Source of the DNA: a virus | Virus record (IMG/VR): IMGVR_UViG_3300046808_001349 | Location: 1-22,406 of that record | Length of the DNA: 22,406 nt | Strand: one strand, 5' to 3' | Part shown: piece by piece, positions 7,052 through 21,943 of the stretch | Numbering within the stretch: the first letter of the stretch is position 1 | Layout: every line of letters begins with the position of its first letter | The notes under the pieces: model-generated | What the model saw: the letters and a program-made list of their open reading frames with translations, nothing else | Told to the model about the DNA's origin: nothing | The model's database searches: none | Made by a program: the position numbers and the translations under genes

Positions 7052-7349
7052 CTTCGAACATCTCTGCTTCTACATTAGAATTGCCAAGTATCTTTGTTCC
7101 TGGTTCGAAGTGTGTATCGTAAGTATTGAGTAAAGCTGTTAATGGACTACCTTTAAGAGATACATTATCAGCACGACCAGAAGTTATATTATCAATAAGA
7201 GGATGTTTGTGTTTATATTCCTTATTTACATAATTAATATTTTTGCGCGTACCGGGATCGACGTGTAGCCTCTTACCGTTTTTAGGGTTCGGATTAGTAA
7301 TCGGGTTGCCCTTAAAGTATTCCAAAAAGTATTTTTTAAAATCAACCAT
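6996..7349 (-). CDS. Unknown 117-residue protein upstream of the neck gene
   Basis: I do not recognise this protein. It is basic in the first half (FKKYFLEYFKGN, then GKRLHVDPGTRKNINYVNKEYKHKHP), neutral with a KGSPLTALLNTYD segment in the middle, acidic near residue 95 (EMFEDEEG) and ends in a basic tail, LKRRKQNAM. There are no membrane segments or signal peptide. The ATG at 7349 lies 7 nt after ATTAAATA on the minus strand, so the gene probably has its own late promoter. That would bypass the terminator just upstream. It overlaps the gp14-like gene, so the two are probably co-translated. Position suggests a head or neck assembly role, which is inference from neighbours only. Confidence 0.7.
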   Translation of the reverse strand: MVDFKKYFLEYFKGNPITNPNPKNGKRLHVDPGTRKNINYVNKEYKHKHPLIDNITSGRADNVSLKGSPLTALLNTYDTHFEPGTKILGNSNVEAEMFEDEEGVPCAILKRRKQNAM

Positions 7350-7364
7350 TTGTTAATATTTAAT
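7350..7364 (-). promoter_or_regulatory. Late-promoter-like element for the 117-residue gene
   Basis: On the minus strand ATTAAATA at 7364-7357 is followed by 7 nt (TTAACAA) and ATG at 7349. The spacing is 2 nt longer than at the other genes, so a 2-nt leader is predicted. It abuts the T-run of the terminator for the gene before it. Confidence 0.5.
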
Positions 7365-7400
7365 AAAAAAACCGAGTAGAACGCATTCTACTCGGTTTTA
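7365..7400 (-). terminator. Intrinsic terminator after the acidic gene (both strands possible)
   Basis: An 11-bp perfect stem (7371-7381 with 7386-7396) with a CGCA loop, extended by A/T pairs. A run of six T follows on the minus strand (7370-7365); on the plus strand TTTT follows as well. It ends transcription of the 7421-8269 gene. Confidence 0.85.
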
Positions 7401-7420
7401 GTTATTTTTTTGAGTTTATA

Positions 7421-7939
7421 TTAGCGTTGAAAAGCTCCTTGACCGGTTTTAAGATTGCCGACCTTGTTGTTTTTACCCATATCTGGCTGCTTTGCATTTA
7501 CAAGAGCGTGGCCGTGGTCACCATCGTTACCAACTTTGTCTGTTGAAGCTGAGCTAGCAGAACCACCAACAGGCTTAAGGTTACCAACTTTGTTGTTCTT
7601 GCCGTGATCAACGGTCTTTGACGCAGCGGTAGCACCACCAAGGCTTTCTTCGTCTTCTTCAAGATCGCTACCACCGAACTCGTCTTCACCGCCCATTTCA
7701 TCTTCGCCTTCACCTTCACCTTCATCAGCACCTTCTTCTGCAACAATTGCACCAAGTACTTCATAAAGTTTCATTGCGGTTTCACGATCAAGCTTAATGG
7801 TTACTTCATCTTCACTACCCATCTCTTCATCTGGTGTAGCGTCGTCAAGACCAAGTGAATCAAGCTCTTGTGCTTCGTCTTGTTCACCACCGAACATTAC
7901 GTTTTCGTAAAGTGTGTCAAATATAGATTTTTTACTCAT
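7421..7939 (-). CDS. Putative nested product starting at Met111 of the acidic protein (172 aa)
   Basis: Within the 282-residue frame, ATG at 7939 (reading leftwards) is preceded by CTTAAATA and exactly 5 nt, the same arrangement found at most gene starts in this window. The sequence beginning there, MSKKSIFDTLYENVMFG, looks like a natural N-terminus: a short basic start followed by an amphipathic helix. The predicted product shares the whole acidic and repeat-bearing C-terminus with the long form but lacks the basic N-terminal 110 residues. Nested in-frame scaffold genes are known in other phages (lambda C/Nu3). This is a prediction from the motif; chance occurrence in AT-rich DNA is possible. 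Confidence 0.4.
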   Translation of the reverse strand: MSKKSIFDTLYENVMFGGEQDEAQELDSLGLDDATPDEEMGSEDEVTIKLDRETAMKLYEVLGAIVAEEGADEGEGEGEDEMGGEDEFGGSDLEEDEESLGGATAASKTVDHGKNNKVGNLKPVGGSASSASTDKVGNDGDHGHALVNAKQPDMGKNNKVGNLKTGQGAFQR

Positions 7940-8269
7940 AAATTTATTTAAGCTCTTTTGTGCTATTTTTCTACTTTCTTCGGTAATTTCTTCTTCATCT
8001 TCTTCATTTTCATCGCAACTGCAATCAGGTTGCGAGAGATTCTTAATATTATAGAGATTGTCTTCAAGTTCCTTTTTAGACATTTTCTTTCTATCTATTT
8101 TAGAAGCTACATAACCTGCTGTTTCTTGAGGCCCGCCCTTAACGAGTGGCGCTTCCCCAATCTCTTCTTTTACCTTAGATTCACGTATAATGTTTTTCTT
8201 CACATCATTGAGAATATTACCGTATATATCACCAAGACTATTAAGGTCTTTCTTTTTTGTAGTAGACAT
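7421..8269 (-). CDS. Acidic head-core/scaffold-like protein (function uncertain), likely with a nested second product
   Basis: A protein of 282 residues with a lysine-rich N-terminal part (1-75), an acidic stretch (84-98, CDENEEDEEE), then MSKKSIFDTLYENVMFG at 111, and a very acidic Glu/Gly/Asp region (129-210). The C-terminal tail contains two copies of GKNNKVGNLK (about 223-232 and 265-274). Low complexity, high charge and the place next to terminase and neck genes fit a phage prohead core or internal scaffold protein, but I see no diagnostic motif. The start is well supported: TATAAATA lies exactly 5 nt before ATG on the minus strand. A second copy of the same promoter pattern lies before Met111, so a 172-residue product is plausible. 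The gene ends at a strong hairpin terminator. It is divergent from the terminase gene, with 16 nt between start codons. Confidence 0.75.
   Translation of the reverse strand: MSTTKKKDLNSLGDIYGNILNDVKKNIIRESKVKEEIGEAPLVKGGPQETAGYVASKIDRKKMSKKELEDNLYNIKNLSQPDCSCDENEEDEEEITEESRKIAQKSLNKFMSKKSIFDTLYENVMFGGEQDEAQELDSLGLDDATPDEEMGSEDEVTIKLDRETAMKLYEVLGAIVAEEGADEGEGEGEDEMGGEDEFGGSDLEEDEESLGGATAASKTVDHGKNNKVGNLKPVGGSASSASTDKVGNDGDHGHALVNAKQPDMGKNNKVGNLKTGQGAFQR
7940..7952 (-). promoter_or_regulatory. Internal late-promoter-like element before Met111
   Basis: On the minus strand CTTAAATA at 7952-7945 is followed by 5 nt and the in-frame ATG at 7939. It has the same spacing as the promoters at true gene starts. 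It is the only such element I found inside a gene. Confidence 0.45.
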
Positions 8270-8282
8270 ATAATTATTTATA
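8270..8282 (-). promoter_or_regulatory. T4-type late promoter for the acidic head-core-like gene
   Basis: On the minus strand TATAAATA occupies 8282-8275 and ATTAT fills the 5 nt to the ATG at 8269. This is a perfect match to the T4 late consensus. With T4 geometry (octamer at -13 to -6) transcription would begin at the A of ATG. Confidence 0.75.
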
Positions 8283-8285
8283 TAA

Positions 8286-9992
8286 ATGCCCGCTAAATCT
8301 ACAAAAAATGAATTTTATCTAGGTAATCCTAACTTACCTAATAAACACTGGAAAGGTGAATACACAAAGGAGATGGTAACACATCTTAAAAAGAGTAAAC
8401 AGAATCTCTTACACTTTGCAGAAAACTTCTTCTATATTATCGACCCTGATGCTGGTAAGGTGTGTATTGAATTATTCCCGTATCAGAAGAGATGCTTAAG
8501 AACAATTAGAGATAATAGAAAAGCTATATTATTAGCTAGTAGACAGGTTGGTAAAACAACAGTGCTTACAATCTATGCTCTCTGGATTGCGTGCTTTAAT
8601 GATTATCAAAATATTGTTATTGTTGCAAACAAAGAAGCAACAGCAATAGAAATTTTCCGGAGAATACGATTAGCGTATGAAGAGCTCCCCAACTGGATTA
8701 AGCCAGGTGTTAAAGAATACGGTAAAACATCTTGTGAATTCGAAAATGGTTCTCGTATAGGTATTAGTACAACAACAGGATCGGCAGCTCGTGGTGCTTC
8801 TATTAACTGTATTATTATTGATGAGATGGCGTTCATTGAGCCTGAGTCAATTCTCGAAGATTTCTGGAGATCAGTGTTTCCTACTATTTCAAGATCTAAG
8901 AAATCAAAAGTTCTAATAGCTTCCACGCCTAATGGTACGGGTAACTTGTTTCATAGATTAGTTGATGGAGCTGAAAAGAATGAAAATGGCTTTGTATACG
9001 AGAGAGTTATATGGTCGGAGGTTCCAGGTAGAGACGAGAAGTGGAAACAAGAACAGCTTAAAGCTCTCGGTAGCATGGAGTCTTTCTTACAGGAATATGA
9101 GTGCCAGTTTTTATCACTAGGTGATTCTTCTATTGACGAAGAGCTGTTCTACGAGTTATCACAAAAATGTACAGAACCTAAAATTGTACTTGACGATGGA
9201 CACTATAAAATATGGGAAGAACCTGATGCATCAAGATTGTATGTAGCTGGTGTTGATATTTCTGAAGGTGTTGGTATCGATGCTAGTGTTATACAGATTT
9301 TCGATATTACAGATCTCAAAGCAATAAGACAAGTTGCTGTTTATCATAATAGATTGATTCCGCCGCTAGAGTTTGCTAATAAACTATATTCTATATTAAG
9401 AAACTGGGGTTCGCCTTTAGCTCTCATTGAACGCAATAACTGTGGTGCGCAGGTTGTTGATAGATTAGCGTTTGATATGGGTTATGAAAAGGTTGTATCA
9501 TATGGCGCTAAAGTAGCTAATAGAACAACACCCCAAATGGGTATGATAGCTCATACTAATACAAAATATAAGGGTGTTATTAATATGCGCTATTTCTTAA
9601 ATGAGATAAAGGTTGTTGAGTTTAGAGATAAAGAGACTCTCAAAGAATTCAAAGACTTTGTACGTTATCCGAACGGTATTTGGAAAGCTAAGAGCGGATC
9701 ACATGATGACCGCGTAATGTCGTGTTTATACGCTCTCTACATACTTGAAAAGGAACTTACAGAGCGTTATTTTGATATATTAGAATTTGATGATCAGGGT
9801 AAACCAGCAGCTATAGAGCAAATGGATTTTGGCATAGCAATGTTTGAGAATCCCACATCTATATATCTAGACAATGAAATTGTTGGTCATAATACACACA
9901 CTATACCGGCTATTGTTTTTGGTATGGGTGAGGTAGATAATGAAAGTGATATTACTGAGTTAGAAAGCGAGGGCTGGCAGCGGCTATATTAA
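8286..9992 (+). CDS. terL: Terminase large subunit (T4 gp17-like ATPase-nuclease)
   Basis: The DNA-packaging motor of 568 residues (T4 gp17 is about 610). The N-terminal ATPase has Walker A SRQVGKTT (85-92), Walker B IIIDEMAF with Asp179/Glu180, and the coupling segment STPNGTGN (213-220). The C-terminal RNase-H-like nuclease has Asp324 (AGVDISEGVG), Glu382 (LIERNN) and Asp474/Asp475 (SHDDRVMS), matching the three acidic positions of gp17. It docks on the portal, translocates DNA into the head and cuts the concatemer. ATG at 8286 is the first in frame. No convincing NNTAAATA-N5 element precedes it, unlike many neighbours; only a poor match, ATTATTTA, is at that distance. The small terminase is not visible here. 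The gene ends inside the promoter of the next gene. Confidence 0.95.
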   Translation: MPAKSTKNEFYLGNPNLPNKHWKGEYTKEMVTHLKKSKQNLLHFAENFFYIIDPDAGKVCIELFPYQKRCLRTIRDNRKAILLASRQVGKTTVLTIYALWIACFNDYQNIVIVANKEATAIEIFRRIRLAYEELPNWIKPGVKEYGKTSCEFENGSRIGISTTTGSAARGASINCIIIDEMAFIEPESILEDFWRSVFPTISRSKKSKVLIASTPNGTGNLFHRLVDGAEKNENGFVYERVIWSEVPGRDEKWKQEQLKALGSMESFLQEYECQFLSLGDSSIDEELFYELSQKCTEPKIVLDDGHYKIWEEPDASRLYVAGVDISEGVGIDASVIQIFDITDLKAIRQVAVYHNRLIPPLEFANKLYSILRNWGSPLALIERNNCGAQVVDRLAFDMGYEKVVSYGAKVANRTTPQMGMIAHTNTKYKGVINMRYFLNEIKVVEFRDKETLKEFKDFVRYPNGIWKAKSGSHDDRVMSCLYALYILEKELTERYFDILEFDDQGKPAAIEQMDFGIAMFENPTSIYLDNEIVGHNTHTIPAIVFGMGEVDNESDITELESEGWQRLY

Positions 9993-10000
9993 ATATAGGT
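9988..10000 (+). promoter_or_regulatory. Late promoter for the 192-residue tube-fold gene
   Basis: ATTAAATA at 9988-9995, then TAGGT, then ATG at 10001. The element overlaps the terminase stop codon (9990-9992). AGG in the spacer is too close to the start to serve as a normal ribosome site. Confidence 0.65.
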
Positions 10001-10579
10001 ATGGCAAGTAATGAGTTACAACAATCGTTTTTGAATAAGTCACGTGTTGATAAGTTTAAGCTTGTCTTTACTCTACCAGTTGCTTTGAGACAGATTAATA
10101 CACATACAGAACGAAATAATAATACAGTTATAGAGAATTCAATGCAATTTTCTATTTACGGTACGGTTGTTCCGGAAATTCAAGTACCAGCTTTAGAGAT
10201 TAGATATTCTGGTAGTACACTATATAATTCTACGCACTCTAAAAACCCATATCCTCCTGTAACGGTTAATTTTACAATAGATAACCAATATAATAACTAT
10301 TGGGTAATATATACATGGTTAAACCTAATGCATGATGAAAGTTCTGGTACATTTGATAAGAGAAATCTTATTACAGATGATAAGTTCAAAGACTATCAAA
10401 CAGATCTAATGATATATGGTTTAGATGAGTATGATAATAAAAGAATTCAGTTTACTTACACAAAAGCCTTTCCTACTATACTTGGTGGAATAAACTATAA
10501 CTATAGAGAATCAGATGAAATCCAATCGTCCTTTACCTTTGTTTATTCGCAATTACATACTAAACTAATTAATTATTAA
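10001..10579 (+). CDS. Tail-tube-fold protein (putative tube or tube-junction component)
   Basis: A 192-residue protein lying between terminase and sheath. The pattern DKFKLVFTLP, then NSMQFSIYGTVVPEI, then YPPVTVNFTIDNQYNNYWVIYTWLN suggests the beta-barrel of contractile-tail tube proteins, with a trailing strand pair at FTFVYSQLHT. It is not the main tube protein, which is better matched by the 189-residue gene after the sheath. It may form a specialised ring at the head end or baseplate end of the tube. T4 has its gp15 tail terminator nearby in this cluster, but I see no specific gp15 resemblance. The start is supported by ATTAAATA exactly 5 nt before ATG, a promoter that overlaps the terminase stop codon. 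Function is inferred from fold-like patterns and position. Confidence 0.6.
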   Translation: MASNELQQSFLNKSRVDKFKLVFTLPVALRQINTHTERNNNTVIENSMQFSIYGTVVPEIQVPALEIRYSGSTLYNSTHSKNPYPPVTVNFTIDNQYNNYWVIYTWLNLMHDESSGTFDKRNLITDDKFKDYQTDLMIYGLDEYDNKRIQFTYTKAFPTILGGINYNYRESDEIQSSFTFVYSQLHTKLINY

Positions 10580-10598
10580 TAAAAAGTTTCCGAAAAGC

Positions 10599-10611
10599 CA
10601 TAAATAATTTT
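10599..10611 (+). promoter_or_regulatory. Late promoter for the sheath gene
   Basis: CATAAATA at 10599-10606, then ATTTT, then ATG at 10612. The spacing is identical to the other late genes. No purine-rich ribosome site lies within the region that would be transcribed. Confidence 0.75.
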
Positions 10612-12948
10612 ATGGCAAAGCGCATTATACAATCACCTGGTGTTGAAATCCAAGAAATAGATCTCTCGTTGAGACTACCTACACCTGCTGGAACCACAGT
10701 TTATGCTACTGGTTTCTCAGATCAAGGCCCTACTGACGAGGTCATTGGTATTTCAAGTCTAGCAGAATTCGAAAATATCTACGGCAAACCAAAATCGCCT
10801 GCAGAGAGATACTTCTACCACACTGTAAAAGCTACTCTCAACTCGCAAGCTAAGTTGCTCGTTAACAGATTACCTTACGGTAGTGATAGTGGTCAAGGAT
10901 TTGGATCTTATGTTTCAGTCCTTGCTTATCCTGTTGCACCTGTACTTCAAGGCTCAGTTAGCGGCACTGAAGGTACATTTGTGAGCACAACTTCCGCAGG
11001 TATGACATACCTCGTTGGTAAGCCAACACAATTTAACATTACCTCCGAACAACATCTCAAATTAATGAGCGGTGAGTTGTTCGATTGGAGCAGCACTCCT
11101 GGTACATCCTTCGACAATATCAGCGCTCTTGGTGGTGCAGGTATTATTGTTGTTAATAAAGGTCAGACAGTAATCGACGGTAAGTTCAACGGCTACTATG
11201 TTGGTCTTGCAGATAACACCAATATTAACCCTGCCACCGACTACGATGCAATCAGAAGTGTTTACACTGTAACACAATCCGCTGCACCGACAGGATTAAC
11301 AAGCTTTGTTAATATTCCTGCTAGCAGATTTGACTTTGCTCTTTCAGCTTCTTCCGCTGCAGGTAGCAATCCTAAGAATGATTCAATCTCCCAAATCATG
11401 GAAGAGAAAATCACAGGATTTGATACCAGCACAAGAGCATTCGACGATACACTTAACTTCGGTCTATTCAAACTTAGACAATCAGTGTTTACAGACGACG
11501 CTAACAAACTTGGTGCTATTATCGAAGAAGGCTTCAACGGCTCGATCGGTTATGGTAGACAAACAATGGATCCGCGTGGTGGTGAGCCTGTTAACTTCTT
11601 CTTAGAAAACGTTGAGAACAATTCAAGAAACACTGAGCTTCTTGTTAACCCATACATCTCAAATCAATTCACGGGTATCCAACTCAATGACGATGGTACA
11701 CCGAAGAATAAAGTTAGAGTTATCTCTAAGCAACTCGAAACGTTTGTAACAACATCCTCCCCTGCTTCAGCGGTAGCGATCGTTGGTTGTACATATAGCT
11801 CGTTGACAGCGGCTGCTAACTCAATTGGCTACGCTGATGCTCTATTCCCTCTTGGTGCATATGGTGAATCTAAGCTCAATGAAAAAGTAATCGGTAATGT
11901 ACCTGGTAAGCTTTCAAGAGCTCTTGAAAGAATCAGAAACGCTGATATCTTCGATATCGACATTATCGCTGAAGGTGGTCTTGGTACTGTTTGGACTTAT
12001 ACAAATACCGCTGCTAACTCAGCATATTTCGATGATACCAAAACAACACCTGCTATTGAAGCTCTTAGAACAACAAGTGAGTTGGACAATACAGCTGCAA
12101 GAGATGCTTACAATGCAATCTTCACTAAGTTCACAACATTCGTTGGACCTATCAAAGACGGTGGCCGTGGTGATATGATCTTCATCGCTGACCCAATCAG
12201 ACAGATCTTCGTAACAGGTAAAGATAGCAAGATCATCAATGATAACTCAAAGAACTTCTCAAGAGACATTTATTGGGCTCTAAGACATCAGTTCTCAATG
12301 GGTAACACATCTTACGCTGCTGTGTATGCTAACTACCTCAAAGTATATGATGACTTCAGCGGTCTTTATGTATATGTTCCACCTTCTGGTTTCGCAGCCG
12401 CTAAGATGGTTTCAACTGACTCGCTCGTTGGACCATGGGGTGCACCTGCAGGTCTTAACAGAGGTCTTGTTGGTGATGCAATCGACGTTGCATTCTCACC
12501 GAACCAAAGACAACGTGATGATCTCTACACGATCAGCATGAACCCAATTACAACATTCCCTGATCAAGGTATTGTAATCTTCGGTCAAAAGACACTTCAG
12601 AAGAAGCCAAGTGCATTCGATAGAATTAACGTAAGAAGAAACTTCTTATATCTTGAGAAAGCAACTAAGTCGGTAATGAAATACTTCATCTTCGAGAATA
12701 ACACACTATTCACAAGATCACAAATCATTAACACCCTTAACCCGTTCTTCGAAAGAGTTAAAGCAGATGACGGATTATATGATTACCTCATTGTTTGCGA
12801 TGAACGTAACAATACTCCAGAAGTTATTGATAATAACGAACTTATTGTTGATATCTATCTCAAGCCAGTTAGAACAGCTGAGTTCATCAGAGTTAACTTC
12901 TACGCAACAAGAACCGATGCTAGCTTCGCAGAACTAGTTGGTAGCTAA
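10612..12948 (+). CDS. Tail sheath protein (T4 gp18-like)
   Basis: The contractile sheath subunit, 778 residues (T4 gp18 is 659), forming the rings around the tail tube that contract on infection. The N-terminus has the sheath signature SPGVEIQEIDLS, and residues about 25-85 match the domain that threads neighbouring subunits. The conserved C-terminal domain (about 660-775) contains FDRINVRRNFLYLEKATKSV, a CDERNNTPEVIDNNEL segment and LKPVRTAEFIRVNF, all typical of the family. The middle (about 100-450) is variable and probably surface-exposed. The ATG has CATAAATA 5 nt upstream. A strong terminator follows the stop, so this is a single-gene unit. Codons ending in C (AAC, TTC, ATC) are used more than in flanking genes, as expected for a very abundant protein. 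Confidence 0.95.
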   Translation: MAKRIIQSPGVEIQEIDLSLRLPTPAGTTVYATGFSDQGPTDEVIGISSLAEFENIYGKPKSPAERYFYHTVKATLNSQAKLLVNRLPYGSDSGQGFGSYVSVLAYPVAPVLQGSVSGTEGTFVSTTSAGMTYLVGKPTQFNITSEQHLKLMSGELFDWSSTPGTSFDNISALGGAGIIVVNKGQTVIDGKFNGYYVGLADNTNINPATDYDAIRSVYTVTQSAAPTGLTSFVNIPASRFDFALSASSAAGSNPKNDSISQIMEEKITGFDTSTRAFDDTLNFGLFKLRQSVFTDDANKLGAIIEEGFNGSIGYGRQTMDPRGGEPVNFFLENVENNSRNTELLVNPYISNQFTGIQLNDDGTPKNKVRVISKQLETFVTTSSPASAVAIVGCTYSSLTAAANSIGYADALFPLGAYGESKLNEKVIGNVPGKLSRALERIRNADIFDIDIIAEGGLGTVWTYTNTAANSAYFDDTKTTPAIEALRTTSELDNTAARDAYNAIFTKFTTFVGPIKDGGRGDMIFIADPIRQIFVTGKDSKIINDNSKNFSRDIYWALRHQFSMGNTSYAAVYANYLKVYDDFSGLYVYVPPSGFAAAKMVSTDSLVGPWGAPAGLNRGLVGDAIDVAFSPNQRQRDDLYTISMNPITTFPDQGIVIFGQKTLQKKPSAFDRINVRRNFLYLEKATKSVMKYFIFENNTLFTRSQIINTLNPFFERVKADDGLYDYLIVCDERNNTPEVIDNNELIVDIYLKPVRTAEFIRVNFYATRTDASFAELVGS

Positions 12949-12958
12949 TTAAACAAAT

Positions 12959-12988
12959 AAACGGCTCCTCGAAAGGGGAGCCGTTTTT
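12959..12988 (+). terminator. Intrinsic terminator after the sheath gene
   Basis: Stem ACGGCTCCTC (12961-12970) with GGGGAGCCGT (12975-12984), nine Watson-Crick pairs and one G-T pair, closed by a GAAA tetraloop. TTTTT follows. It lies 10 nt after the sheath stop codon. Confidence 0.9.
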
Positions 12989-13008
12989 AATAAAAACAAC
13001 TAACCCCG

Positions 13009-13021
13009 ACTAAATAATTAT
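13009..13021 (+). promoter_or_regulatory. Late promoter for the tail tube gene
   Basis: ACTAAATA at 13009-13016, then ATTAT, then ATG at 13022. It lies 20 nt after the sheath terminator T-run. Confidence 0.65.
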
Positions 13022-13591
13022 ATGCCAAACTTACAGAACATCGAAAAATTCTACTCACGCGCTTCTACAAGAGATTTCTCAAGAGATTTCTTATTCAGAG
13101 TCAAGTCGCTTAACATCCGTGACCTTGTTATGGGTGATGACGATCTTGTCTATGTTAAAGCAGCACAATTACCAGGCAGAACTGTAACAAACGTAGCTGT
13201 ACCATATATGGGTCTTAACTTCAACGTCCCAGGCGGTGCAACTTACCCAGGTTCTGATTCTTATGCCTTAACATTCTATCTTGATGCTGGTAGCGTATTG
13301 AGAGAGCGCTTCGAAGTTGCTTCACGCACACTTTTCGATGACGATTCTTCAACCGGTAGATACGGCACACCAAACACACAAAACTTTATTACTCTCGTAC
13401 AACTAAGAAAAGATCTTAACGAGTTACGTGAATATAAACTTGTTGGTGCTTCACTTCGCAACATCAATGCTATCGATTATCAGATCGCTTCTGGTACAGG
13501 TAACACTGTTGAAGTAGGTGTCACACTTGCTTACCACTACTACGAAATCGGTAGTGGCTCTGGTGCATTAGCCAACGAAGGTGGAATTTAA
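13022..13591 (+). CDS. Tail tube protein (T4 gp19-like)
   Basis: A 189-residue inner tube subunit (T4 gp19 is 163) that stacks as hexamers to form the DNA channel. Features matching the family are an N-terminal helix region (NIEKFYSRASTRDFSRDFLFRVKSL), LVYVKAAQLPGRTVTNVAVPYMGLNFNVPG, then YALTFYLDAGSVLRERFE, and the C-terminal strand VGVTLAYHYYEIG. It directly follows the sheath gene, as gp19 follows gp18 in T4. The ATG has ACTAAATA exactly 5 nt upstream. Hairpin terminators lie on both sides, so the transcript carries this gene alone. C-ending codons are favoured, as in the sheath gene. Confidence 0.9.
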   Translation: MPNLQNIEKFYSRASTRDFSRDFLFRVKSLNIRDLVMGDDDLVYVKAAQLPGRTVTNVAVPYMGLNFNVPGGATYPGSDSYALTFYLDAGSVLRERFEVASRTLFDDDSSTGRYGTPNTQNFITLVQLRKDLNELREYKLVGASLRNINAIDYQIASGTGNTVEVGVTLAYHYYEIGSGSGALANEGGI

Positions 13592-13617
13592 TATTAAGGT
13601 TTAAAAGTTAAAGCAAC

Positions 13618-13651
13618 AAAAACCCCGGGGCATTTCGCTCTCGGGGTTTTT
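13618..13651 (+). terminator. Intrinsic terminator after the tail tube gene
   Basis: Stem AAAAACCCCG (13618-13627) with CGGGGTTTTT (13642-13651) around a 14-nt loop that can pair a little further. The T-run forms part of the right arm. It separates the tube gene from the gp54-like operon. Confidence 0.85.
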
Positions 13652-13652
13652 G

Positions 13653-13665
13653 ATTAAATACAAAT
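13653..13665 (+). promoter_or_regulatory. Late promoter for the gp54-like gene
   Basis: ATTAAATA at 13653-13660, then CAAAT, then ATG at 13666. The octamer starts right after the T-run of the tail tube terminator. Confidence 0.65.
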
Positions 13666-14586
13666 ATGGCTGGTATAGGTACGCTGCGCGATGATTTAGC
13701 ACAAGACGGGTTTTATGAAGCTCGTCTTGATTTCCCTGAATCCAAAAGATACAGATCGAGATCAGTGCGCGACGACTTAGAGAAAGATGGGTATGATGTT
13801 AAGCTCGATCTACCTGAACCTGCAACTTTAATAGGACCTGGTGGAGGAGGTAATGGACCTCGAGCAGCAAGATTAGATAGACAAATAAAATGGGAGAACG
13901 ATCTACCTCTAAAGTTTCTTTGGACGATTAAATTTTCAGCGAGAGACGGTCAAAATAATGCTCTTGGAAATAGGATAGAGAAAGTAATAAAAATGTACGA
14001 AGCTCGGTCGACAGGCAAGTGGCCTGTTCAGAAAGATATAATAGAGCGTCAATCTCATAGCAAATACGGGTATCTCTTCGCAACTGCAGTTGCGTTTCCT
14101 GGCGATAGCTTTGCAATAATGGAACAGCCTTTTGAAAACACAGGTGGCTTTATTCCTGCATATGTTGGGGGACAGCGTACAGGTTATGGTAGTGGAAATA
14201 AGTTAGATATTACTTTCTTTGAAACAAATAAAGATATTTTAGATTATTTTATTAGACCATGGATAATCGCTAACTCTCACCTCGGTTTAATTGAATTAGG
14301 TGAGGGCAACCCAACAGATATAAAATGCCATATACAAGTCTGTTTTTATACACGTGATAAAGCTTCCTATGAAAGAAAAAACGAGGATGCTTTTTCTGGT
14401 AATGTAAAAGAGTTTAGAACAGTAATGCAATTAAGAAAATCTATGCAGTTCTATAATTGTGTACCCTTTAACATTGCTGGAGATCAAATAAGTTACGGTG
14501 AGCTTAGTTTTTCAGATGTAAGTAAAATAGTTTCATTTGCCTTTTCGCATTACGAGATAGATAATATTGAGAACATGCAAAGATAA
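13666..14586 (+). CDS. Tube-fold baseplate/tail protein, gp54-like
   Basis: A 306-residue protein. The C-terminal two thirds (about 80-300) resemble tube-fold junction proteins such as T4 gp54: LPLKFLWTIKFSARD, then LDITFFETNKDILDYFIRPWIIANSHLGLIELG, then MQFYNCVPFNIAGDQISY and a final VSFAFSHYEI strand. Such proteins start tube growth on the baseplate. The first 55 residues are different: two copies of an RDDL-x-x-DG-...-LD-PE motif (about 7-25 and 34-51), then a Gly-rich linker (GPGGGGNGP). The start is supported by ATTAAATA 5 nt before ATG, just after a terminator. The stop overlaps the next start by 1 nt (TAATG), so this is the first gene of a coupled unit. The gp54 assignment rests on pattern and position. 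Confidence 0.65.
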   Translation: MAGIGTLRDDLAQDGFYEARLDFPESKRYRSRSVRDDLEKDGYDVKLDLPEPATLIGPGGGGNGPRAARLDRQIKWENDLPLKFLWTIKFSARDGQNNALGNRIEKVIKMYEARSTGKWPVQKDIIERQSHSKYGYLFATAVAFPGDSFAIMEQPFENTGGFIPAYVGGQRTGYGSGNKLDITFFETNKDILDYFIRPWIIANSHLGLIELGEGNPTDIKCHIQVCFYTRDKASYERKNEDAFSGNVKEFRTVMQLRKSMQFYNCVPFNIAGDQISYGELSFSDVSKIVSFAFSHYEIDNIENMQR

Positions 14587-15425
14587 TGAAGGATTTTACC
14601 TTAAAACTTACTTTACCAAGTGGTCGAACAATACGCATAAAAGAAATCTCTAACAGAGTATACTTTAATATTTTAAAATTCTGTGAAAACCAAGACTACG
14701 AGGGGTTAAATTTATACCTCGAGGATATTATTTTCAGCGAATATAAAGAAATCGATATAATCGATAGACTTTATATAATGTTGTATTATAGAATGCTTTT
14801 TGTAAGCGAGAATATTGTCTTTAGCTCGGATAGCTTACAAGGTAAATTTAAAGAAGTAAAATATAGCTTACGAACTATTCTTGAGAAGATAGAAGAACAA
14901 TACGAAGATCACACTCTTGTTATTAAGGATAAAGAAATTTCCGTAACTCTCGGACTACCCAATACAATGTTTTTTGGAACTGTCGATGATGTTTACGGTT
15001 CAATTATAAAGAGTGTAACTTATCAAGGTAAAACGGTAGATCTAAATACGATTTCTACATCAGAAAAAATAACAATAATAGAGCGCTTACCGCTTAGTGT
15101 ATTTACTGAAGTACAAAAGTATACAGAGCGACTCTCGCAGACACTGAGTAAGTTCGTTTTAATTGAAGCTAACGAGGAGTTTGATATCCAACAACATGAA
15201 ATTAACATTATCTCTAATGGCTTAATGATGTTTATTAGTTCTCTTTTTGGCGGGGGGCTTAACTCCTTTTATGTAACGATGTTTAGTTTTGTTAGTAAGT
15301 TACAAATGGATTCAGAGCTATTCTTTAATATTACACCTATCGAAATGCGTGTTATATTTAATATACATGCTGAAGAGGTAGAAGAGCAACAACGGAGAGA
15401 GAAAGAAAATAGTAGGCAAATGTAG
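14586..15425 (+). CDS. Probable baseplate hub assembly protein/chaperone (gp51-like position)
   Basis: A 279-residue soluble protein, mostly helical and charged. The N-terminus reads FTLKLTLPSGRTIRIKEISNRVYFNILKF; this 'property to be recognised plus helical body' form is common in phage tail or hub chaperones. The last 60 residues include a helix-rich FGGGLNSFYVTMFSFVSKLQ segment, ITPIEMRVIF and a charged tail (EEVEEQQRREKE). It sits between the gp54-like gene and a gp26-like gene, just before the tape measure, as T4 has 26 and 51 near 27-28-29. I cannot assign it to a named family from residues alone. The ATG overlaps the previous stop by 1 nt and has no promoter element or good ribosome site of its own, so translation is probably coupled. 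Confidence 0.55.
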   Translation: MKDFTLKLTLPSGRTIRIKEISNRVYFNILKFCENQDYEGLNLYLEDIIFSEYKEIDIIDRLYIMLYYRMLFVSENIVFSSDSLQGKFKEVKYSLRTILEKIEEQYEDHTLVIKDKEISVTLGLPNTMFFGTVDDVYGSIIKSVTYQGKTVDLNTISTSEKITIIERLPLSVFTEVQKYTERLSQTLSKFVLIEANEEFDIQQHEINIISNGLMMFISSLFGGGLNSFYVTMFSFVSKLQMDSELFFNITPIEMRVIFNIHAEEVEEQQRREKENSRQM

Positions 15426-15440
15426 TTGCAAACCAATGCT

Positions 15441-15445
15441 AGGAG
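15441..15445 (+). promoter_or_regulatory. Possible Shine-Dalgarno site before the gp26-like gene
   Basis: AGGAG is the clearest ribosome-binding-like sequence in any gap here. It lies 14 nt before GTG at 15460 and 5 nt before an in-frame ATT at 15451. It precedes a gene without a TAAATA-N5 element, which fits normal internal initiation on a longer mRNA. Confidence 0.4.
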
Positions 15446-15459
15446 CTTAAATTAATATT

Positions 15460-16197
15460 GTGAGTGATATTAAGCAATTTATTCAGCAGTTGGAAACCAT
15501 TACCGATGGTGAAGTAGTAGATATTTTCATCCCCTCAGTAAAGAAAAAGGGTAAGTTTCGAGCACTTACCGTTAAACAACATAAAGACATTATTAAGACG
15601 GTAATGGAAGGTTTTGATGGTAGCATTAAGACACCAATTACCTTTAATAACATTCTCAAAGAAAATGCTATCGATAAAGGTCTTGAACTTAAGCTTTATG
15701 ATCGCAACCACATTCTTGTTGAATTACGTAAAGCTACAATTGGTGAGTCGGTAAAAATTGGTGATACAACCTACGACCTCAAAGAACTACCAAAATTTAA
15801 CTTTGAATTTGAAGGTGAACCAAACATCGAATATAAAAATATCTCCGTAGAGATGGAGATTCCAAGCTTAGAGAAAGATACACAGATTACTGAAAAAAGT
15901 ATGTTTGAGTTTGGTAAAATCTCCTCTGAAGAGAAGAAGGTTAAGGACTCTGTGAATATCTTACTTACTTTCGAAATTATTAAATTCATTAAGCAGGTAA
16001 AAATTGGTGAATTGGTACTAAGCTTTGATAAGCTCAGCTTACACGAAAAGAAGAGTATTGTTGATGCTTTTCCACTTAAGCTTAATAATAATATTATTGA
16101 TTTTATCTCTAAGTACAAGGAATATGAGCAATCACTACTCACTTTTGGTGACGGAACTAAGCTTACAATTGATGCTAGTTTCTTGACCAGTGAATAA
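15460..16197 (+). CDS. Baseplate hub protein, T4 gp26-like
   Basis: A 245-residue protein resembling the T4-type base plate family that contains gp26 (208 residues). The family begins with a strand pair, a FR-x-L-T-V-K-(E/Q) segment followed by a helix, and later an L-R-K-x-(T/S)-(I/V)-GE motif. Here these appear as GKFRALTVKQHKDIIKTVMEG (about 32-52) and LVELRKATIGESVKI (about 86-100). The second half is helical and ends with a SLLTFGDGTKLTIDASFL strand pair. It probably acts in hub assembly beside the tape measure. The GTG start at 15460 lies 14 nt after AGGAG, which is long. An ATT codon at 15451 in the same frame would have a better spacing of 5 nt, so the exact start is open. No TAAATA-N5 element precedes it. 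Confidence 0.6.
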   Translation: MSDIKQFIQQLETITDGEVVDIFIPSVKKKGKFRALTVKQHKDIIKTVMEGFDGSIKTPITFNNILKENAIDKGLELKLYDRNHILVELRKATIGESVKIGDTTYDLKELPKFNFEFEGEPNIEYKNISVEMEIPSLEKDTQITEKSMFEFGKISSEEKKVKDSVNILLTFEIIKFIKQVKIGELVLSFDKLSLHEKKSIVDAFPLKLNNNIIDFISKYKEYEQSLLTFGDGTKLTIDASFLTSE

Positions 16198-16205
16198 ATA
16201 TATGT
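16193..16205 (+). promoter_or_regulatory. Late promoter for the tape measure gene
   Basis: AATAAATA at 16193-16200, then TATGT, then the GTG start at 16206. An ATG at 16202 is out of frame and reaches a stop after three codons. The fixed 5-nt spacing therefore favours GTG as the real start. Confidence 0.65.
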
Positions 16206-19200
16206 GTGGCTGATAATCCAAACGACCAAATTTTACCACAGATATTAGCTCTTCTCGAAGGCGAGAAAGATCTGGAACAACCTTCAAATGCTGCTCAAAC
16301 CGAGCAGCATAAAGGTATTATAAAAGATAGGACGGAGAAGCCAAAAGAAAAACCCGCTTCTCTAACTTCCAACGAAGAAGGTAGACTTAAAAATATTGGT
16401 GTAATACTCGCTAATACTATTGGTAGAGAGTTACAAATTGGTAAATATAAGCCAGGTCCTGAGGCTGGTCGTCTCAAGATGGAGCAAACAAAGGTAGGCT
16501 CTGCGGTTAATGTTCCAAAACCACCGCCTGCACCTACAGGACCTGCTAACAGTATTCTTGATCTATTAAAGAATTTAGGTTGGATGGCTCTACTCGGTGG
16601 TATAGCTGCCGCTGCTGCTGCACTGTATGATAATTTAGGTGCTCTTGGTAGAGGTCTAACTAAAATAGCTCTAAAACTTGCACCTTATATAGGTAAGCTA
16701 GCTAGGTTTGGCGGTAAGATTATTAGAGGTATAGGTATGTTAGCGAGTGGGCTAGGTAAACTTGTAACATCTCTTAGTGATGCGTTTAAATATTTTAAAA
16801 CAAAGGGTATAGCGGGGTTTCTTGATGATCTTAAGATGAAGTTTCCCAAGACATCGCAGTTTGTTGATGATACACTTAAGCTTTTCGATGATTTTAAAAA
16901 CTGGTTTAAAAATTCCTGGTTCGGAAAAACTTTAGATAACATTAAAGCAGCTATTAAGGCTAGATTTAAAGGGCTGTTTGTAATGAAAGTAAAAACAGCA
17001 TCAGGAAAAGAACTAGAGCTACTTACAGGACTTGGTGCGAAGGTTGAAAAAATAAAAGATTGGTGGAAAAACACTGTTGGCAGGATATTTGATCTAAAAT
17101 TCCTACAAAAAGCTGAAAAGGCTGGTGATGCCGTAAAAGGAGCTAAAGATTTAGGTAAATTTGGACAAGCGGTACAACGCGTTATAGGTGTTGTAAAGGG
17201 CATAGGCGGCTTTGTAGGAAAAATAGTCGGATGGCTAAAGAGCGGCTTTGGTGCTTTAACGGAGATCGGTGGAACAGTAGCAAAAGTATTGGGTAAGGGT
17301 AAAGGCGGTGGTATACTTGCTAAAATGCTTGGTGGTGCGTTTAAGCTTATAGGTAAAATGCTACAGCCTATACTTAAAAAATTACCTGTTATAGGAGCTG
17401 TTATGAGTATAGGTTTTGCCTGGGCAAGATTTCAAAAAGGCGAAACTATACCCGCAATACTCGAACTAATTTCAGGTATCTTATCCTTTATACCTGGTAT
17501 TGGTACTGTTGGTTCTATTATCATTGATGGTGCATTAATGCTTTATGATATGGATAAGCAGAAGAAGGAAGAGGCTGCTAGTGGCATAGAACCTAAAGAA
17601 GGGGGAGGTATTTTTGGAAAGATTAAAAAATGGATGGGGGATTGGTTAATGCCTAAATTGAGATATCTACCTTTTATAGGAGCTATGTTTTATTACGCTG
17701 ATGCTATTTCAGCATTTACCAGCGGTGATTTATTTAACGGGATAGACAATTTACTTAAAGGTCTTATTGCAACTGTTGGTGGTAAGGGTCTTGTTGATCT
17801 TATAAATAGCGCTTACCCGGTCATAAAAAGCTTCTTTACAGATGAAGAAAAAGCCGAGCCTGAGGCTAAGAGCGAAGAAAAGGGAGGTTTCTTTTCCTGG
17901 GTTAAAGATAAGTTTGCCGAGGCTATGGGGAACCGTGAAAAGCTAAGTAAAATACCTTTCATGAACGTATTCTTCTATGGTGCAGATGCGTGGAATGCTT
18001 TCAAAGGCGGTAAGTGGGGCGAAGGTTTCAAGTTTTTGGGTCTTGCTCTTCTTTCTGCTCTACCTATTACCGGTATAGTACAGACTATATCTCTTGGTAT
18101 TAACTGGGTGTTATCATTCTTCGATGATAATAAAGACCAAGGTCAGCCAGAAGAAATGAAAAGTGACGGTGGGTTCTGGGACTCTATTAAAGGCGCATGG
18201 GAAGCTATAGGTGGTATTGTTGTTGGTGCTATTGATGCTATTAAAAATTGGATATCGGATACCATTAAGAGTATTACTGAGAAAGCTAAAGAGGTCCTTA
18301 ATCCAATGAACTGGTTTGATGGTGAAGAAGAGGATGAGCTTAGCGATGAAGAAAAGCAACGCAGAGCCAAGAAGATGGGGTGGGATAACTGGGATCAATA
18401 TAAAAAATCAAACTGGAAGAAGAATCCTGAAACGATGCCTGCGGCTCAAGCTGCAGCACCAGCTACTACATCTCTACCAACTAATACATCAGATAATGAA
18501 GAATTAATGCGCAGAGCTAAAGCAATGGGTTGGAATACTGCTGATGAGTATAAAAATTCAGGATGGAAAGAAAACCCTGCAATTGCTAAAGGTGCAGAAA
18601 CTGCAGTTTCAGCAGTAGAACAAAATGCTAAGGCAATGGGCTGGAAAACTGTTGATGAGTATAGAAATTCAGGATGGAAACAAAACCCTGCAATTGCTAA
18701 AGGTGCAGAATCTGCTGAAGACCCTGTAGTCTTACGTAATGCCAAAGCAATGGGTTGGAACACCGTTGAAGAGTATAGAAACGCTAACTGGAAGCAGAAC
18801 CCTGCTATGATAGCTGCAGTACCTGCAGCGTCTACAACAACGGCAAGCTTTACAGATACTACCGCAGCCGGAACTACACCAACTACAGGTATAGCGACTG
18901 CAGCACCTGGCTATGGCGTGGCTCCAGGGCAAGTTGCGCAAGGCTTCGCTACTGCTGCAGCACCTGCTACAACATATACACCAACTACTCCTTCTGCTCC
19001 GCTAAATCAAGATGTTAAGGCAAATATCGCCGCTGTTATGGAAGCAGTGAAAGCAAAAGGCTTTACAAATCCGAAGTATCTTGCTGCTGTTTACGGTAAC
19101 GTGATGAAAGAAACAGGTGGTAAGATAATGGCTGAAAATATGAACTACTCAACTACGAGTAATGCTCGTATACGCAGTATTTTCGGTAGCCGTGTTGCGG

Positions 19201-20843
19201 GAATGACAGATGCGCAAATTAATCAAATCAAAAGCACACCTGAATCTTTTGGTAATGCAATGTATGGTGGCCATACAAGAATCGGTAAAAACTTAGGTAA
19301 CGTTGAACCTGGTGATGGTTTTAAGTTTAGAGGTAGAGGATTTGTACAACTTACTGGTAGAGCTGCATACACAAAAGCATCAAAAGCAATCTTCGGTGAT
19401 GATAGATTGGTACAAAATCCTGATTTGGTTCTAGATAGACAGGTCGGTGCTTTAGTTACTGCGTGGGAGCTTGAAGACAGAAAGAGCTGGGCAGGTAAGT
19501 ATGGTATTGATTACAATAACATGACTCAGGAGCAAGCGAATATGCTTGTAACTAGTAAGATTGCAGGTACAAAGGTCACAAGAGGCCAAGGATATCTAGG
19601 TGGTCTTTTAACTAAGGTAGATCAATACTCAACACAATTTAACCCTGCAGATTACGCAGGTGGTTCTACAGCTGTAGCTGCTGCAATGCCATCAAACTTA
19701 GATACAATGGTACCAGCAAACACCAATACAGCTACTGGTGCTGCTACAGCAGGTATTATGTCTGCGCTAGGAATGCAAGCACCTAGTCAAAGCACTGCTC
19801 AATTCCAAGCACAGTCTATAAGCGTACCGAGTGCTGGCGGTCCAGTAACAACAACATGGACGGGTGGTGAGTCAAACTTCAATATTAATGGCGCTAACAT
19901 GGGTCCATTAAACTCAGAGTTCCGTCGTCGTCTTGAAAGCATGGCTGCTGAGTATAGGCAAAAAACTGGTAAGAAAATTACTGTCTCTGGTCCAAGAAGT
20001 GCTTATAGAACATATGAGCAGCAAGTACAGATCTATAAAACAGCGAGACCGGGTTATGCTGCTACACCAGGCTCATCAAACCATGGTTTTGGTTTCGCTC
20101 TTGATATTAACACAGCCGATGCTAATAGAGCTGAAAGCCTGGGACTACTTAAAAAATACGGTCTCCATAGACCAATGATGTCGCCAAGATTGTATGAGCC
20201 TTGGCACCTCGAGCCAGTAGGTCTCGACAAATCAAAACTAGCACAATATCGTGCTCGTAAGGAATCTGGTAAGTTCTCAGGAGATCAACTTGCTTTCGCT
20301 CTAACCGGCGGAGCAGCACCACCGTATACAGAAGGATCATTTATGCCTGCTGGTTCTGTCGCTTCTGCTGCTACACCTACAACGGGCTCTGCAGGCACTG
20401 TCTTTAATACTGGTGCAAGTTCAACACCCGATTCGAGTGGCGGTGGGTTGTTTAGTGGTTTGACCAATCTATTCACTCCTTCTAGTCTCGGTACTTCAGC
20501 TGAAAGCGCTGGCGGCGGTATTTCTAACTTAAGTTCTTCTTCTACACCAGGGCCAATGTCTACAATGGGCGCTGAAAGTAATATAACAAGCAAAATGGAT
20601 GATATCGCCTCCAAACAAATAAGTAAAGCAGACGAAGAAATAAACGTTCTTAAGGATATTGAGAAGAGTATTAAAGAACTTAACAAACAAATTAGTGCAC
20701 TATCACGTGTTACTATAAACAACGTATCAGGCGGTGATGGTAAAACAAGTATTACTAACGCAAATATACCAGAAACAGACAAGAGACTTGAACCTCAAAC
20801 GAGTGGTGGGTTTTTTGGCGGTAAGCTGTTTGGCTTTGCGTAA
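16206..20843 (+). CDS. Tape measure protein with GH19 lysozyme/chitinase-like and M15 peptidase domains
   Basis: A protein of 1545 residues between the hub chaperones and the tube cap, the T4 gene 29 position. Residues 116-190 and 385-640 are hydrophobic and helical; the second block is three tandem units of about 95 residues. Four short GW-type repeats follow (719-866), then an Ala/Thr/Pro linker. Residues about 938-1145 are a GH19 domain: Glu969 (KETGG), ENMNYS, and FRGRGFVQLTGRAAY. Residues about 1225-1337 are an M15 peptidase: Arg near SAYRTYEQQ, zinc ligands His1293 and Asp1300 (SNHGFGFALD) and His1334 with catalytic Glu1331 (EPWH). A coiled-coil-like stretch (about 1460-1500) lies near the end. 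It should set tail length, enter the cell envelope at injection, and cut both glycan and peptide of the wall. The GTG start is fixed by AATAAATA 5 nt upstream. Confidence 0.88.
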   Translation: MADNPNDQILPQILALLEGEKDLEQPSNAAQTEQHKGIIKDRTEKPKEKPASLTSNEEGRLKNIGVILANTIGRELQIGKYKPGPEAGRLKMEQTKVGSAVNVPKPPPAPTGPANSILDLLKNLGWMALLGGIAAAAAALYDNLGALGRGLTKIALKLAPYIGKLARFGGKIIRGIGMLASGLGKLVTSLSDAFKYFKTKGIAGFLDDLKMKFPKTSQFVDDTLKLFDDFKNWFKNSWFGKTLDNIKAAIKARFKGLFVMKVKTASGKELELLTGLGAKVEKIKDWWKNTVGRIFDLKFLQKAEKAGDAVKGAKDLGKFGQAVQRVIGVVKGIGGFVGKIVGWLKSGFGALTEIGGTVAKVLGKGKGGGILAKMLGGAFKLIGKMLQPILKKLPVIGAVMSIGFAWARFQKGETIPAILELISGILSFIPGIGTVGSIIIDGALMLYDMDKQKKEEAASGIEPKEGGGIFGKIKKWMGDWLMPKLRYLPFIGAMFYYADAISAFTSGDLFNGIDNLLKGLIATVGGKGLVDLINSAYPVIKSFFTDEEKAEPEAKSEEKGGFFSWVKDKFAEAMGNREKLSKIPFMNVFFYGADAWNAFKGGKWGEGFKFLGLALLSALPITGIVQTISLGINWVLSFFDDNKDQGQPEEMKSDGGFWDSIKGAWEAIGGIVVGAIDAIKNWISDTIKSITEKAKEVLNPMNWFDGEEEDELSDEEKQRRAKKMGWDNWDQYKKSNWKKNPETMPAAQAAAPATTSLPTNTSDNEELMRRAKAMGWNTADEYKNSGWKENPAIAKGAETAVSAVEQNAKAMGWKTVDEYRNSGWKQNPAIAKGAESAEDPVVLRNAKAMGWNTVEEYRNANWKQNPAMIAAVPAASTTTASFTDTTAAGTTPTTGIATAAPGYGVAPGQVAQGFATAAAPATTYTPTTPSAPLNQDVKANIAAVMEAVKAKGFTNPKYLAAVYGNVMKETGGKIMAENMNYSTTSNARIRSIFGSRVAGMTDAQINQIKSTPESFGNAMYGGHTRIGKNLGNVEPGDGFKFRGRGFVQLTGRAAYTKASKAIFGDDRLVQNPDLVLDRQVGALVTAWELEDRKSWAGKYGIDYNNMTQEQANMLVTSKIAGTKVTRGQGYLGGLLTKVDQYSTQFNPADYAGGSTAVAAAMPSNLDTMVPANTNTATGAATAGIMSALGMQAPSQSTAQFQAQSISVPSAGGPVTTTWTGGESNFNINGANMGPLNSEFRRRLESMAAEYRQKTGKKITVSGPRSAYRTYEQQVQIYKTARPGYAATPGSSNHGFGFALDINTADANRAESLGLLKKYGLHRPMMSPRLYEPWHLEPVGLDKSKLAQYRARKESGKFSGDQLAFALTGGAAPPYTEGSFMPAGSVASAATPTTGSAGTVFNTGASSTPDSSGGGLFSGLTNLFTPSSLGTSAESAGGGISNLSSSSTPGPMSTMGAESNITSKMDDIASKQISKADEEINVLKDIEKSIKELNKQISALSRVTINNVSGGDGKTSITNANIPETDKRLEPQTSGGFFGGKLFGFA
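17313..18170 (+). repeat. Three diverged tandem units of about 95 residues in the tape measure
   Basis: Each unit has a charged linker (GGxF...), then P-(V/F)-(I/M)-(G/N)-A/V-x-F, an ADA-x-x-AF-x-x-G-like segment, a hydrophobic LL-x-GLL-like helix and an SFF-like end. The P(V/F) anchors fall near residues 394, 489 and 584. The units are similar in protein pattern but not in DNA, so the duplications are old. Confidence 0.65.
18360..18803 (+). repeat. Four copies of a GW-type repeat inside the tape measure
   Basis: The protein motif A-K-x-MGW-x-T-x-(D/E)-EY-(K/R)-N-(S/A)-x-W-K-x-NP occurs at residues about 719-741, 769-791, 806-828 and 845-866. Copies 2 and 3 share almost 50 nt with two mismatches at a period of 111 nt (from 18554 and from 18665), which indicates recent duplication. 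Copy 1 is the most diverged. Function is unknown; binding to wall or baseplate partners is possible. Confidence 0.9.
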
Positions 20844-20847
20844 CCCT

Positions 20848-20860
20848 TATAAATAATATT
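20848..20860 (+). promoter_or_regulatory. Late promoter for the tube cap gene
   Basis: A perfect TATAAATA at 20848-20855, then ATATT, then ATG at 20861. It sits in the 17-nt gap after the tape measure gene. Confidence 0.75.
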
Positions 20861-21943
20861 ATGCCTGGTCCGTATTACGCTAAAGTTGGTAAAACAGTAA
20901 AAAGTACTACACTTATTAAGGGCGCAGGAACCTTACCCAATACCGACCCTGAAGTAGTGCTTGAATGTACACGTAAGCCCATTGATGTAATACAGGATTT
21001 TACATGGTCAGCGTCACATATTACAAGTGATACGATGAAGAAAATGCCCAAGGTTTTATTGGTAGAGAGACGACAAGAGCTGAACTCAACGATTTCATCT
21101 GCTCTTTATTATCTCAATGCTGTGCGTAAAGCTGGTAGTTCTCTCGGTGGTGATGCTCTAAATTCTATAAAAACAAAGCTCAATGCTCTGGTAGGTGGTG
21201 AAAATGTATCTAGCACTATATCAAGTACCGTAAAATCTATTAATAGCTTTATTGAAAGTAATGCAATTTCTTCAGACGATGCTGCTCTACTAAAATCTGC
21301 CGAATATCTTCAGTCGTACATGGGTATATATTATACTAAACCCACAGGTTTTAGATATGTCTTACCTTATTTCGGTGATAATGTAATGGATGCGCAAAAC
21401 AGTTTTGGTGCCACGGCACAAGAGAAGACTGGTATCGGTACAGCTATTGAAACAGGTCAAGCTGTAGTTAATGAAATATCTTCAACCGTTAATCTCTCAC
21501 AACCGGGGTCGTATATCGAAAGACCAAAACATTTCCAATATCCAACAGAAGGTAAGTCTGTTACTATAACCTTTCCTCTTGTTAATACGTTTAAAAGAAA
21601 CAACTACCTCCCTTACCAGCAAAACTATGAGCTATTATGGATACTTGCGTTTCAAAATAGACCGTACAGAACATCATTTTCACGAATTTTACCACCGAAG
21701 ATTTATACATTAACGATACCCGGACAAGAGTTCTTTCCTTATTGCTTTTTAAGTAATATGCAGGTAAACTTTAACGGCACAAGACGGTTACTACCTGTAA
21801 CATTACCTTCTGGAACAACGCTCGAAACTACGATACCTGATGCTTATACGGTTTCTTTAACCTTTACTAGCTTACTAGCAAATATCGGTAATACAATGAT
21901 TGCGAAATCTTTCGCTGAAAAAATAAAAACAGGCACTGCTTGA
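20861..21943 (+). CDS. Baseplate tail-tube cap protein (T4 gp48-like)
   Basis: A protein of 360 residues, almost the length of T4 gp48 (364), which links the baseplate hub to the first tube ring. The C-terminal part (about 218-345) is the recognisable tube-fold domain: YIERPKHFQYPTEGKSVTITFPLVNT, then YELLWILAFQNRPYRTSFSRILPPKIYTLTIPGQ, then a CFLSNMQVNFNGTRRL strand and AYTVSLTFTSL at the end. The middle (about 75-160) is helical and rich in Ser and Ala. It directly follows the tape measure, as gene 48 follows 29 in T4. ATG has a perfect TATAAATA exactly 5 nt upstream, a promoter that begins 5 nt after the tape-measure stop. The following gene lies 21 nt downstream. Confidence 0.8.
   Translation: MPGPYYAKVGKTVKSTTLIKGAGTLPNTDPEVVLECTRKPIDVIQDFTWSASHITSDTMKKMPKVLLVERRQELNSTISSALYYLNAVRKAGSSLGGDALNSIKTKLNALVGGENVSSTISSTVKSINSFIESNAISSDDAALLKSAEYLQSYMGIYYTKPTGFRYVLPYFGDNVMDAQNSFGATAQEKTGIGTAIETGQAVVNEISSTVNLSQPGSYIERPKHFQYPTEGKSVTITFPLVNTFKRNNYLPYQQNYELLWILAFQNRPYRTSFSRILPPKIYTLTIPGQEFFPYCFLSNMQVNFNGTRRLLPVTLPSGTTLETTIPDAYTVSLTFTSLLANIGNTMIAKSFAEKIKTGTA

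Follow-up and report, generated by a model that had tools for sequence, protein, structure and literature searches.

Leaderless mRNAs of phages are known mainly as single cases, such as that of lambda cI. In bacteria, leaderless (TA-led) genes have been described in Actinobacteria and Deinococcus-Thermus, where the −10 box adjoins the open reading frame (ORF) (PMC3160421, PMC12340547), at a distance of 6-7 bp in Deinococcus (PMC12340547). The late genes of phage T4 are transcribed from the promoter TATAAATA by the gp55/gp33/gp45 system. As a sequence-only reading of the present DNA had also stated, the T4 octamer is located at −13 to −6 (PMC1524935), and its first T is poorly conserved in other T4-like phages too (PMC1524935). 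Most T4 copies of the element are found 24-35 nt upstream of the start codon, and a Shine-Dalgarno sequence occupies the interval. The marine T4-like phages, namely cyanophages (NATAAATA) and pelagiphage HTVC008M, have the same octamer as the phages described here.

The window, that is, the whole stretch of DNA analysed, is a 22.4-kb virus fragment that covers only the structural (late) region of a T4-like phage. It resembles T4 in that the same promoter core precedes late structural genes without a −35 element; genes for a gp55 homologue and for a sliding clamp are present in its relatives. It differs in that the core lies 5-6 nt before the start codon with no Shine-Dalgarno sequence found. 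We propose, at a probability of about 0.85, that a T4-type late promoter has been shifted so that late transcription would start at the start codon and give leaderless late mRNAs. In the literature covered, which included few subscription papers and preprints, no earlier report of leaderless T4-like late genes was found.

The putative promoter core and its spacing in the window

The sequence-only reading had listed TAAATA followed by five nucleotides and ATG or GTG (TAAATA-N5-RTG) at a set of places and nowhere else in the window. A search of both strands returned exactly these 8 matches, while shuffled sequences gave 1.28 on average (sd 1.22) and none of 100 shuffles reached 8. The hexamer itself is not enriched, with 37 copies against 42 expected; it is its placement that is. 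TAAATA stands at exactly N5 before 7 of the 13 gene starts (P ~4e-19, given its density in the window). The elements and their genes are as follows.

6996..7349, minus strand: small protein under the N7 variant
7357..7362, minus strand: TAAATA 7 nt before the ATG at 7349 (motif scan), predicted 2-nt leader
7421..8269, minus strand: acidic protein with a probable nested second start, predicted leaderless
7937..7950, minus strand: nested in-frame TAAATA-N5-ATG inside gene 8269-7421, in 60/66 orthologues
8267..8280, minus strand: TAAATA-N5-ATG, putative late promoter core of gene 8269, N5 in 65/70 orthologues
9990..10003, plus strand: TAAATA-N5-ATG before tail-tube paralogue 10001, with 39 N5 and 20 N6 among 78 orthologues
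10001..10579, plus strand: tail-tube paralogue (phrog_45, 4e-17), predicted leaderless
10601..10614, plus strand: TAAATA-N5-ATG before tail sheath 10612, N5 in 50/71 orthologues (most of the others not aligned at the N terminus)
10612..12948, plus strand: tail sheath (phrog_23, 7e-73), predicted leaderless
13011..13024, plus strand: TAAATA-N5-ATG before tail tube 13022, N5 in 46/47 orthologues
13022..13591, plus strand: tail tube (phrog_45, 4e-17), predicted leaderless
13655..13668, plus strand: TAAATA-N5-ATG before 13666, with a terminator T-run stopping 3 nt upstream of TAAATA
13666..14586, plus strand: structural-region protein, family unassigned, predicted leaderless
14586..15425, plus strand: internal control, a coupled (overlapping) gene that lacks the element
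16195..16208, plus strand: TAAATA-N5-GTG before 16206; the start codon differs, the spacing is the same
16206..20843, plus strand: protein of 1545 aa carrying endolysin-like domains, GTG start, predicted leaderless
20850..20863, plus strand: TAAATA-N5-ATG before 20861 (motif scan)
20861..21943, plus strand: protein without an assigned family, predicted leaderless
21965..22345, plus strand: gene without the element, internal control (element in 0/23 orthologues)

At 9990..10003, the TAA of TAAATA doubles as the stop codon of the terminase gene. The 7-nt variant reported before the gene at 7349 was found at the position listed; those of its orthologues that carry the element have mostly N5 or N6. 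The copy at 7939 is present as reported, but "internal" undersells it: it is in frame and conserved, and is probably a second start within the gene at 8269, which predicts a conserved C-terminal short isoform (7939-7421). In the orthologues that carry this copy, its Leu and Ile codons always end in A and its Asn codon is always AAT. The genes at 14586 and 21965, which overlap or closely follow another gene, lack the element in the window, and their orthologues mostly lack it too. The gene at 15460 had been placed in the same coupled class. It lacks the exact element but does not overlap the preceding gene; it carries a near-miss, TAAATT-N6-GTG, and 24 of its 37 orthologues have the N5 element.

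Several other arrangements were observed. TAAATA stands 1 nt before the ATG at 22342 (22335-22344), which does not fit the proposed geometry, and this N1 class recurs at 16 ORFs in relatives. The divergent starts at 8269 (minus) and 8286 (plus, terminase) are separated by 16 bp (8270-8285); the terminase has no element of its own in the window and N6-ATG or N5-GTG in relatives. The gene content comprises terminase, sheath, two tail-tube paralogues, hub-like proteins and a large lysin-domain protein. The sheath gene is flanked by the tail-tube paralogues, the hub-like proteins 14586 and 15460 match one and the same family, and the 1545-aa protein matches two endolysin families in separate stretches. 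Adjacent genes at 1-1395 and 1392-6236 encode what appear to be a trypsin-like and a subtilisin-like protease, the latter matching a PHROG protease family.

Conservation of the spacing among relatives

No terminase of a cultured phage exceeded ~39% identity to that of the window, and 118 relatives were found among viral contigs, 80 of which (58-100% identity) were taken for comparison. The clade is one of widespread, uncultured T4-like phages. When the spacing between TAAATA and ATG was tallied over the related loci, it peaked sharply at N5 (294), with a shoulder at N6 (80) over a background of ~20. Among 942 ORFs from ~80 related contigs there were 371 cases of N5, 98 of N6, 13 of N7 and 1 of N4, although the loci share kinship and these counts are not independent. 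Such a one-sided distribution is expected of a fixed transcription start, since any closer spacing would truncate the start codon. In relatives, N5 is also kept before GTG starts. An A precedes the TAAATA core in 67%, and the first T of the octamer is poorly conserved. Both element and spacing are kept where the proteins are only 35-60% identical and the flanks and spacers have otherwise diverged.

A genome-scale scan of the spacing had been suggested by the sequence-only reading. Run on the four largest clade genomes, it gave 30-43 matches of TAAATA-N5-ATG against 2-7 of the reversed pattern (G005, 30 vs 5; G009, 35 vs 2; G016, 40 vs 2; G017, 43 vs 7). We considered whether the spacing could be due to chance, to the composition of an A/T-rich genome or to biased start-codon calling, as the relatives have ~34% GC and TAAATA is common in them. 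The shuffle and reversed-pattern controls argue against this, as do the N5 peak in every large relative tested and the 262 of 293 motif starts that are the first in-frame start codon. No clear N5 excess was found in T4, cyanophages, Melnitz, phiM9 or XG4, and the lack of a comparable peak in cyanophages and Melnitz further renders an artefact highly improbable. The same comparison with cyanophages, Melnitz, phiM9 and XG4 ruled out N5 spacing as a general feature of T4-like phages. A partial N5 excess was present in HTVC008M, a cultured SAR11 phage with TAAATA-N5-ATG at ~12 annotated genes (among them 19456 gp48, 31132 gp25 and 75830 gp3), and in one close relative. As a matter of sequence, the T4-type late promoter core is shifted onto the start codon across the clade.

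Promoter or translation signal

As the sequence-only reading had recognized, TAAATA-N5 might instead be a translation signal, an A/T-rich element bound by ribosomes of a host that makes little use of Shine-Dalgarno pairing, in which case the mRNAs would begin upstream and have leaders. The start regions are indeed A/T-rich and Shine-Dalgarno sequences are absent throughout the clade. They precede 3% of clade genes without the element, as compared with 48-57% in pelagiphage-type T4-like contigs. By genome the rate is 0-7% in the clade, at or below that at internal ATGs, versus 55% in T4 and 45% in HTVC008M; HTVC008M and pelagiphage-type relatives differ from the clade in having Shine-Dalgarno sequences in about half of their genes. 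A Shine-Dalgarno-like word was found before 11 of 292 genes with the element.

The distribution of the element over gene classes, however, is not that of a translation signal. In four large relatives, core genes were assigned to the late or early class from their resemblance to T4 and HTVC008M; 21/40 late and 0/36 early genes had the element in front of them (P = 5e-8). Against the promoter reading, roughly half of the late core genes do not carry the element in its exact form, nor does the terminase gene of the window; several of the former are downstream genes, and in others TAAATA stands at a distance of 8-11 nt. Among overlapping (coupled) genes only 1/110 carried the element and 109 lacked it, versus 54-65% with it in other gene classes. 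The element is also identical to the T4 late promoter core, and early genes show another element with a different, promoter-like spacing. No conserved −35 hexamer was found upstream of the late core in the related ORFs, as in gp55-type promoters.

The placement of intrinsic terminators bears on the same question. A terminator T-run ends no more than 15 nt upstream of 31/329 elements as compared with 11/967 other TAAATA sequences, and where it does so it ends 1-5 nt upstream, typically 1-3 nt. Three intrinsic terminators lie upstream of elements in the window.

7363..7399, minus strand: intrinsic terminator, T-run reaching the promoter of 7349
12959..12992, plus strand: intrinsic terminator upstream of the promoter of 13022
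13623..13651, plus strand: intrinsic terminator, T-run stopping 14 nt before the ATG at 13666, too close for a longer leader

Transcripts from upstream should not reach a gene so placed. In addition, 21 distinct divergent pairs have start codons ~30 bp apart with one element each. With abutting terminators and such divergent pairs, there is therefore no room for leaders with ribosome-binding sites. The absence of the element from early and overlapping genes, together with terminator placement, ruled out that it is a translation signal only, and mRNAs with leaders that begin upstream of it are unlikely. These results support the element acting as a promoter. The part of the earlier suggestion that stands is the lack of Shine-Dalgarno sequences in the clade; the element itself does not appear to be the signal that replaces them, because it is missing from early and overlapping genes.

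Late transcription machinery and the predicted start site

Late factors, which the sequence-only reading had proposed to look for elsewhere in the genome, were sought in relatives. Homologues of gp55 were identified in three large relatives (phrog_234, 6e-24 to 3e-26); the gene is seen in these genomes and not in the 22-kb window fragment. The clade gp55 is short and divergent, with a conserved central region and a divergent C terminus. A 240-aa protein encoded near gp32 in a relative has a predicted sliding-clamp fold (pLDDT 86; PCNA-like matches at 1e-12), while its sequence gave only a weak match to a clamp and the Pfam model DNA_PPF detected none in the clade. For gp33, a small and fast-diverging protein, there was no significant match in the relatives, which weighs against the proposed reading, and a search for S21 gave nothing convincing.

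With N5 spacing and the T4 geometry of −13 to −6, +1 is predicted to be the first base of the start codon. We propose that host RNA polymerase with the phage gp55-like sigma factor, and probably with the phage sliding clamp, reads the TAAATA core. Transcription would then start on the initial base of the start codon at N5 spacing and one base further upstream at N6. The first mRNA of each late unit would lack a leader, its translation presumably relying on recognition of the 5′-terminal start codon, and overlapping downstream genes would depend on coupling. The spacing, the late specificity and the presence of gp55 and a clamp all support the original prediction of late promoters at start codons with leaderless mRNAs. 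Leaderless transcription and translation are strongly implied; what we infer from the sequences is the exact +1, translation without a leader, and that gp55 and the clamp act at these promoters.

Alternatively, these could be real late promoters with varying start sites and leaders of 1-10 nt, so that the mRNAs are not truly leaderless. N6 is common (98 ORFs), N7 occurs (13), and in some late genes TAAATA stands 8-11 nt upstream of ATG. That N5 forms a sharp peak and N4 hardly occurs points instead to a +1 fixed at the start codon for most genes and makes varying leaders improbable. A point against a start exactly at the start codon is that the divergent, short gp55 might have a start-site distance unlike that of T4. 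With the element so near to each gene, a late mRNA would have to start on the start codon or only a few bases away from it, with no space predicted for the usual ribosome-binding site.

Leaderless mRNAs appear to serve all of the late genes, even those for abundantly made virion proteins like the sheath and the tail tube. If so, leaderless initiation can sustain heavy viral protein synthesis, promoter position can substitute for a ribosome-binding site, and sequence suffices to annotate the start codons and promoters of the clade. With its partial version of the arrangement, the cultured HTVC008M already makes the question testable. The leaderless genes of Actinobacteria and Deinococcus-Thermus depend on host sigma factors, and Shine-Dalgarno sequences are in use in the same cells. 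In this clade, by contrast, a phage sigma factor would define the set of leaderless late genes, and the phage lacks Shine-Dalgarno sequences.

Early genes and the host

As the window holds late genes only, the early promoters were examined in relatives. Early genes there, including uvsX, gp43, gp32 and gp55, have TTGA-N17..19-TATAAT ~6-8 nt before the start codon. At 6-7 nt there were 31 cases in six genomes, as compared with 0 for the reversed pattern and 7 at a control spacing of 10-11; none was found in T4 or HTVC008M. Early genes appear to be arranged like the late ones, under host sigma-70-type promoters, and too look leaderless because 6-7 nt from the −10 box to ATG is the sigma-70 distance. 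The −10 box of sigma-70 ends at −7 and the T4 late octamer at −6, a one-base offset that agrees with the difference between early and late spacings. The early spacing also matches the 6-7 bp of leaderless Deinococcus genes. In G009, a more distant relative, AAACACTA and a TATAAT-like box with N6 before ATG occur at ~38 early genes. This early promoter type, in the 85-137 kb region of that genome, has an extra element at about −24 to −17.

Leaderless mRNAs from the repositioned T4-type late promoter may perhaps be part of a genome-wide arrangement. We tentatively suggest, at somewhat less than even odds, that the whole lineage gave up ribosome-binding sites, such that early (host sigma) and late (gp55) units both start on the start codon and translation proceeds by leaderless initiation and coupling, probably mirroring an uncultured Gram-negative host of the same habit.

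Genes for CsgG and CsgF in G005 suggest a Gram-negative host. A host without Shine-Dalgarno sequences would fit Bacteroidota, in which Flavobacteria have TAnnTTTG promoters and only 5.5% leaderless mRNAs (PMC9723704). Flavobacteria resemble the clade in lacking Shine-Dalgarno sequences but differ in promoter type, the early promoters of the clade being TTGA/TATAAT; among those with an intact −35 (TTGA-N17..19-TATAAT), to which the search was confined, none had a TAnnTTTG box, and a Bacteroidota host is unsupported by them. A scan of the terminase alignment against genomes for a host returned only relatives of 25-35%. One relative encodes a single tRNA-Met and the others no tRNA. G005 also carries 7-deazaguanine synthesis genes (FolE2, QueC, QueD-like and QueF), suggesting modified DNA or RNA bases.
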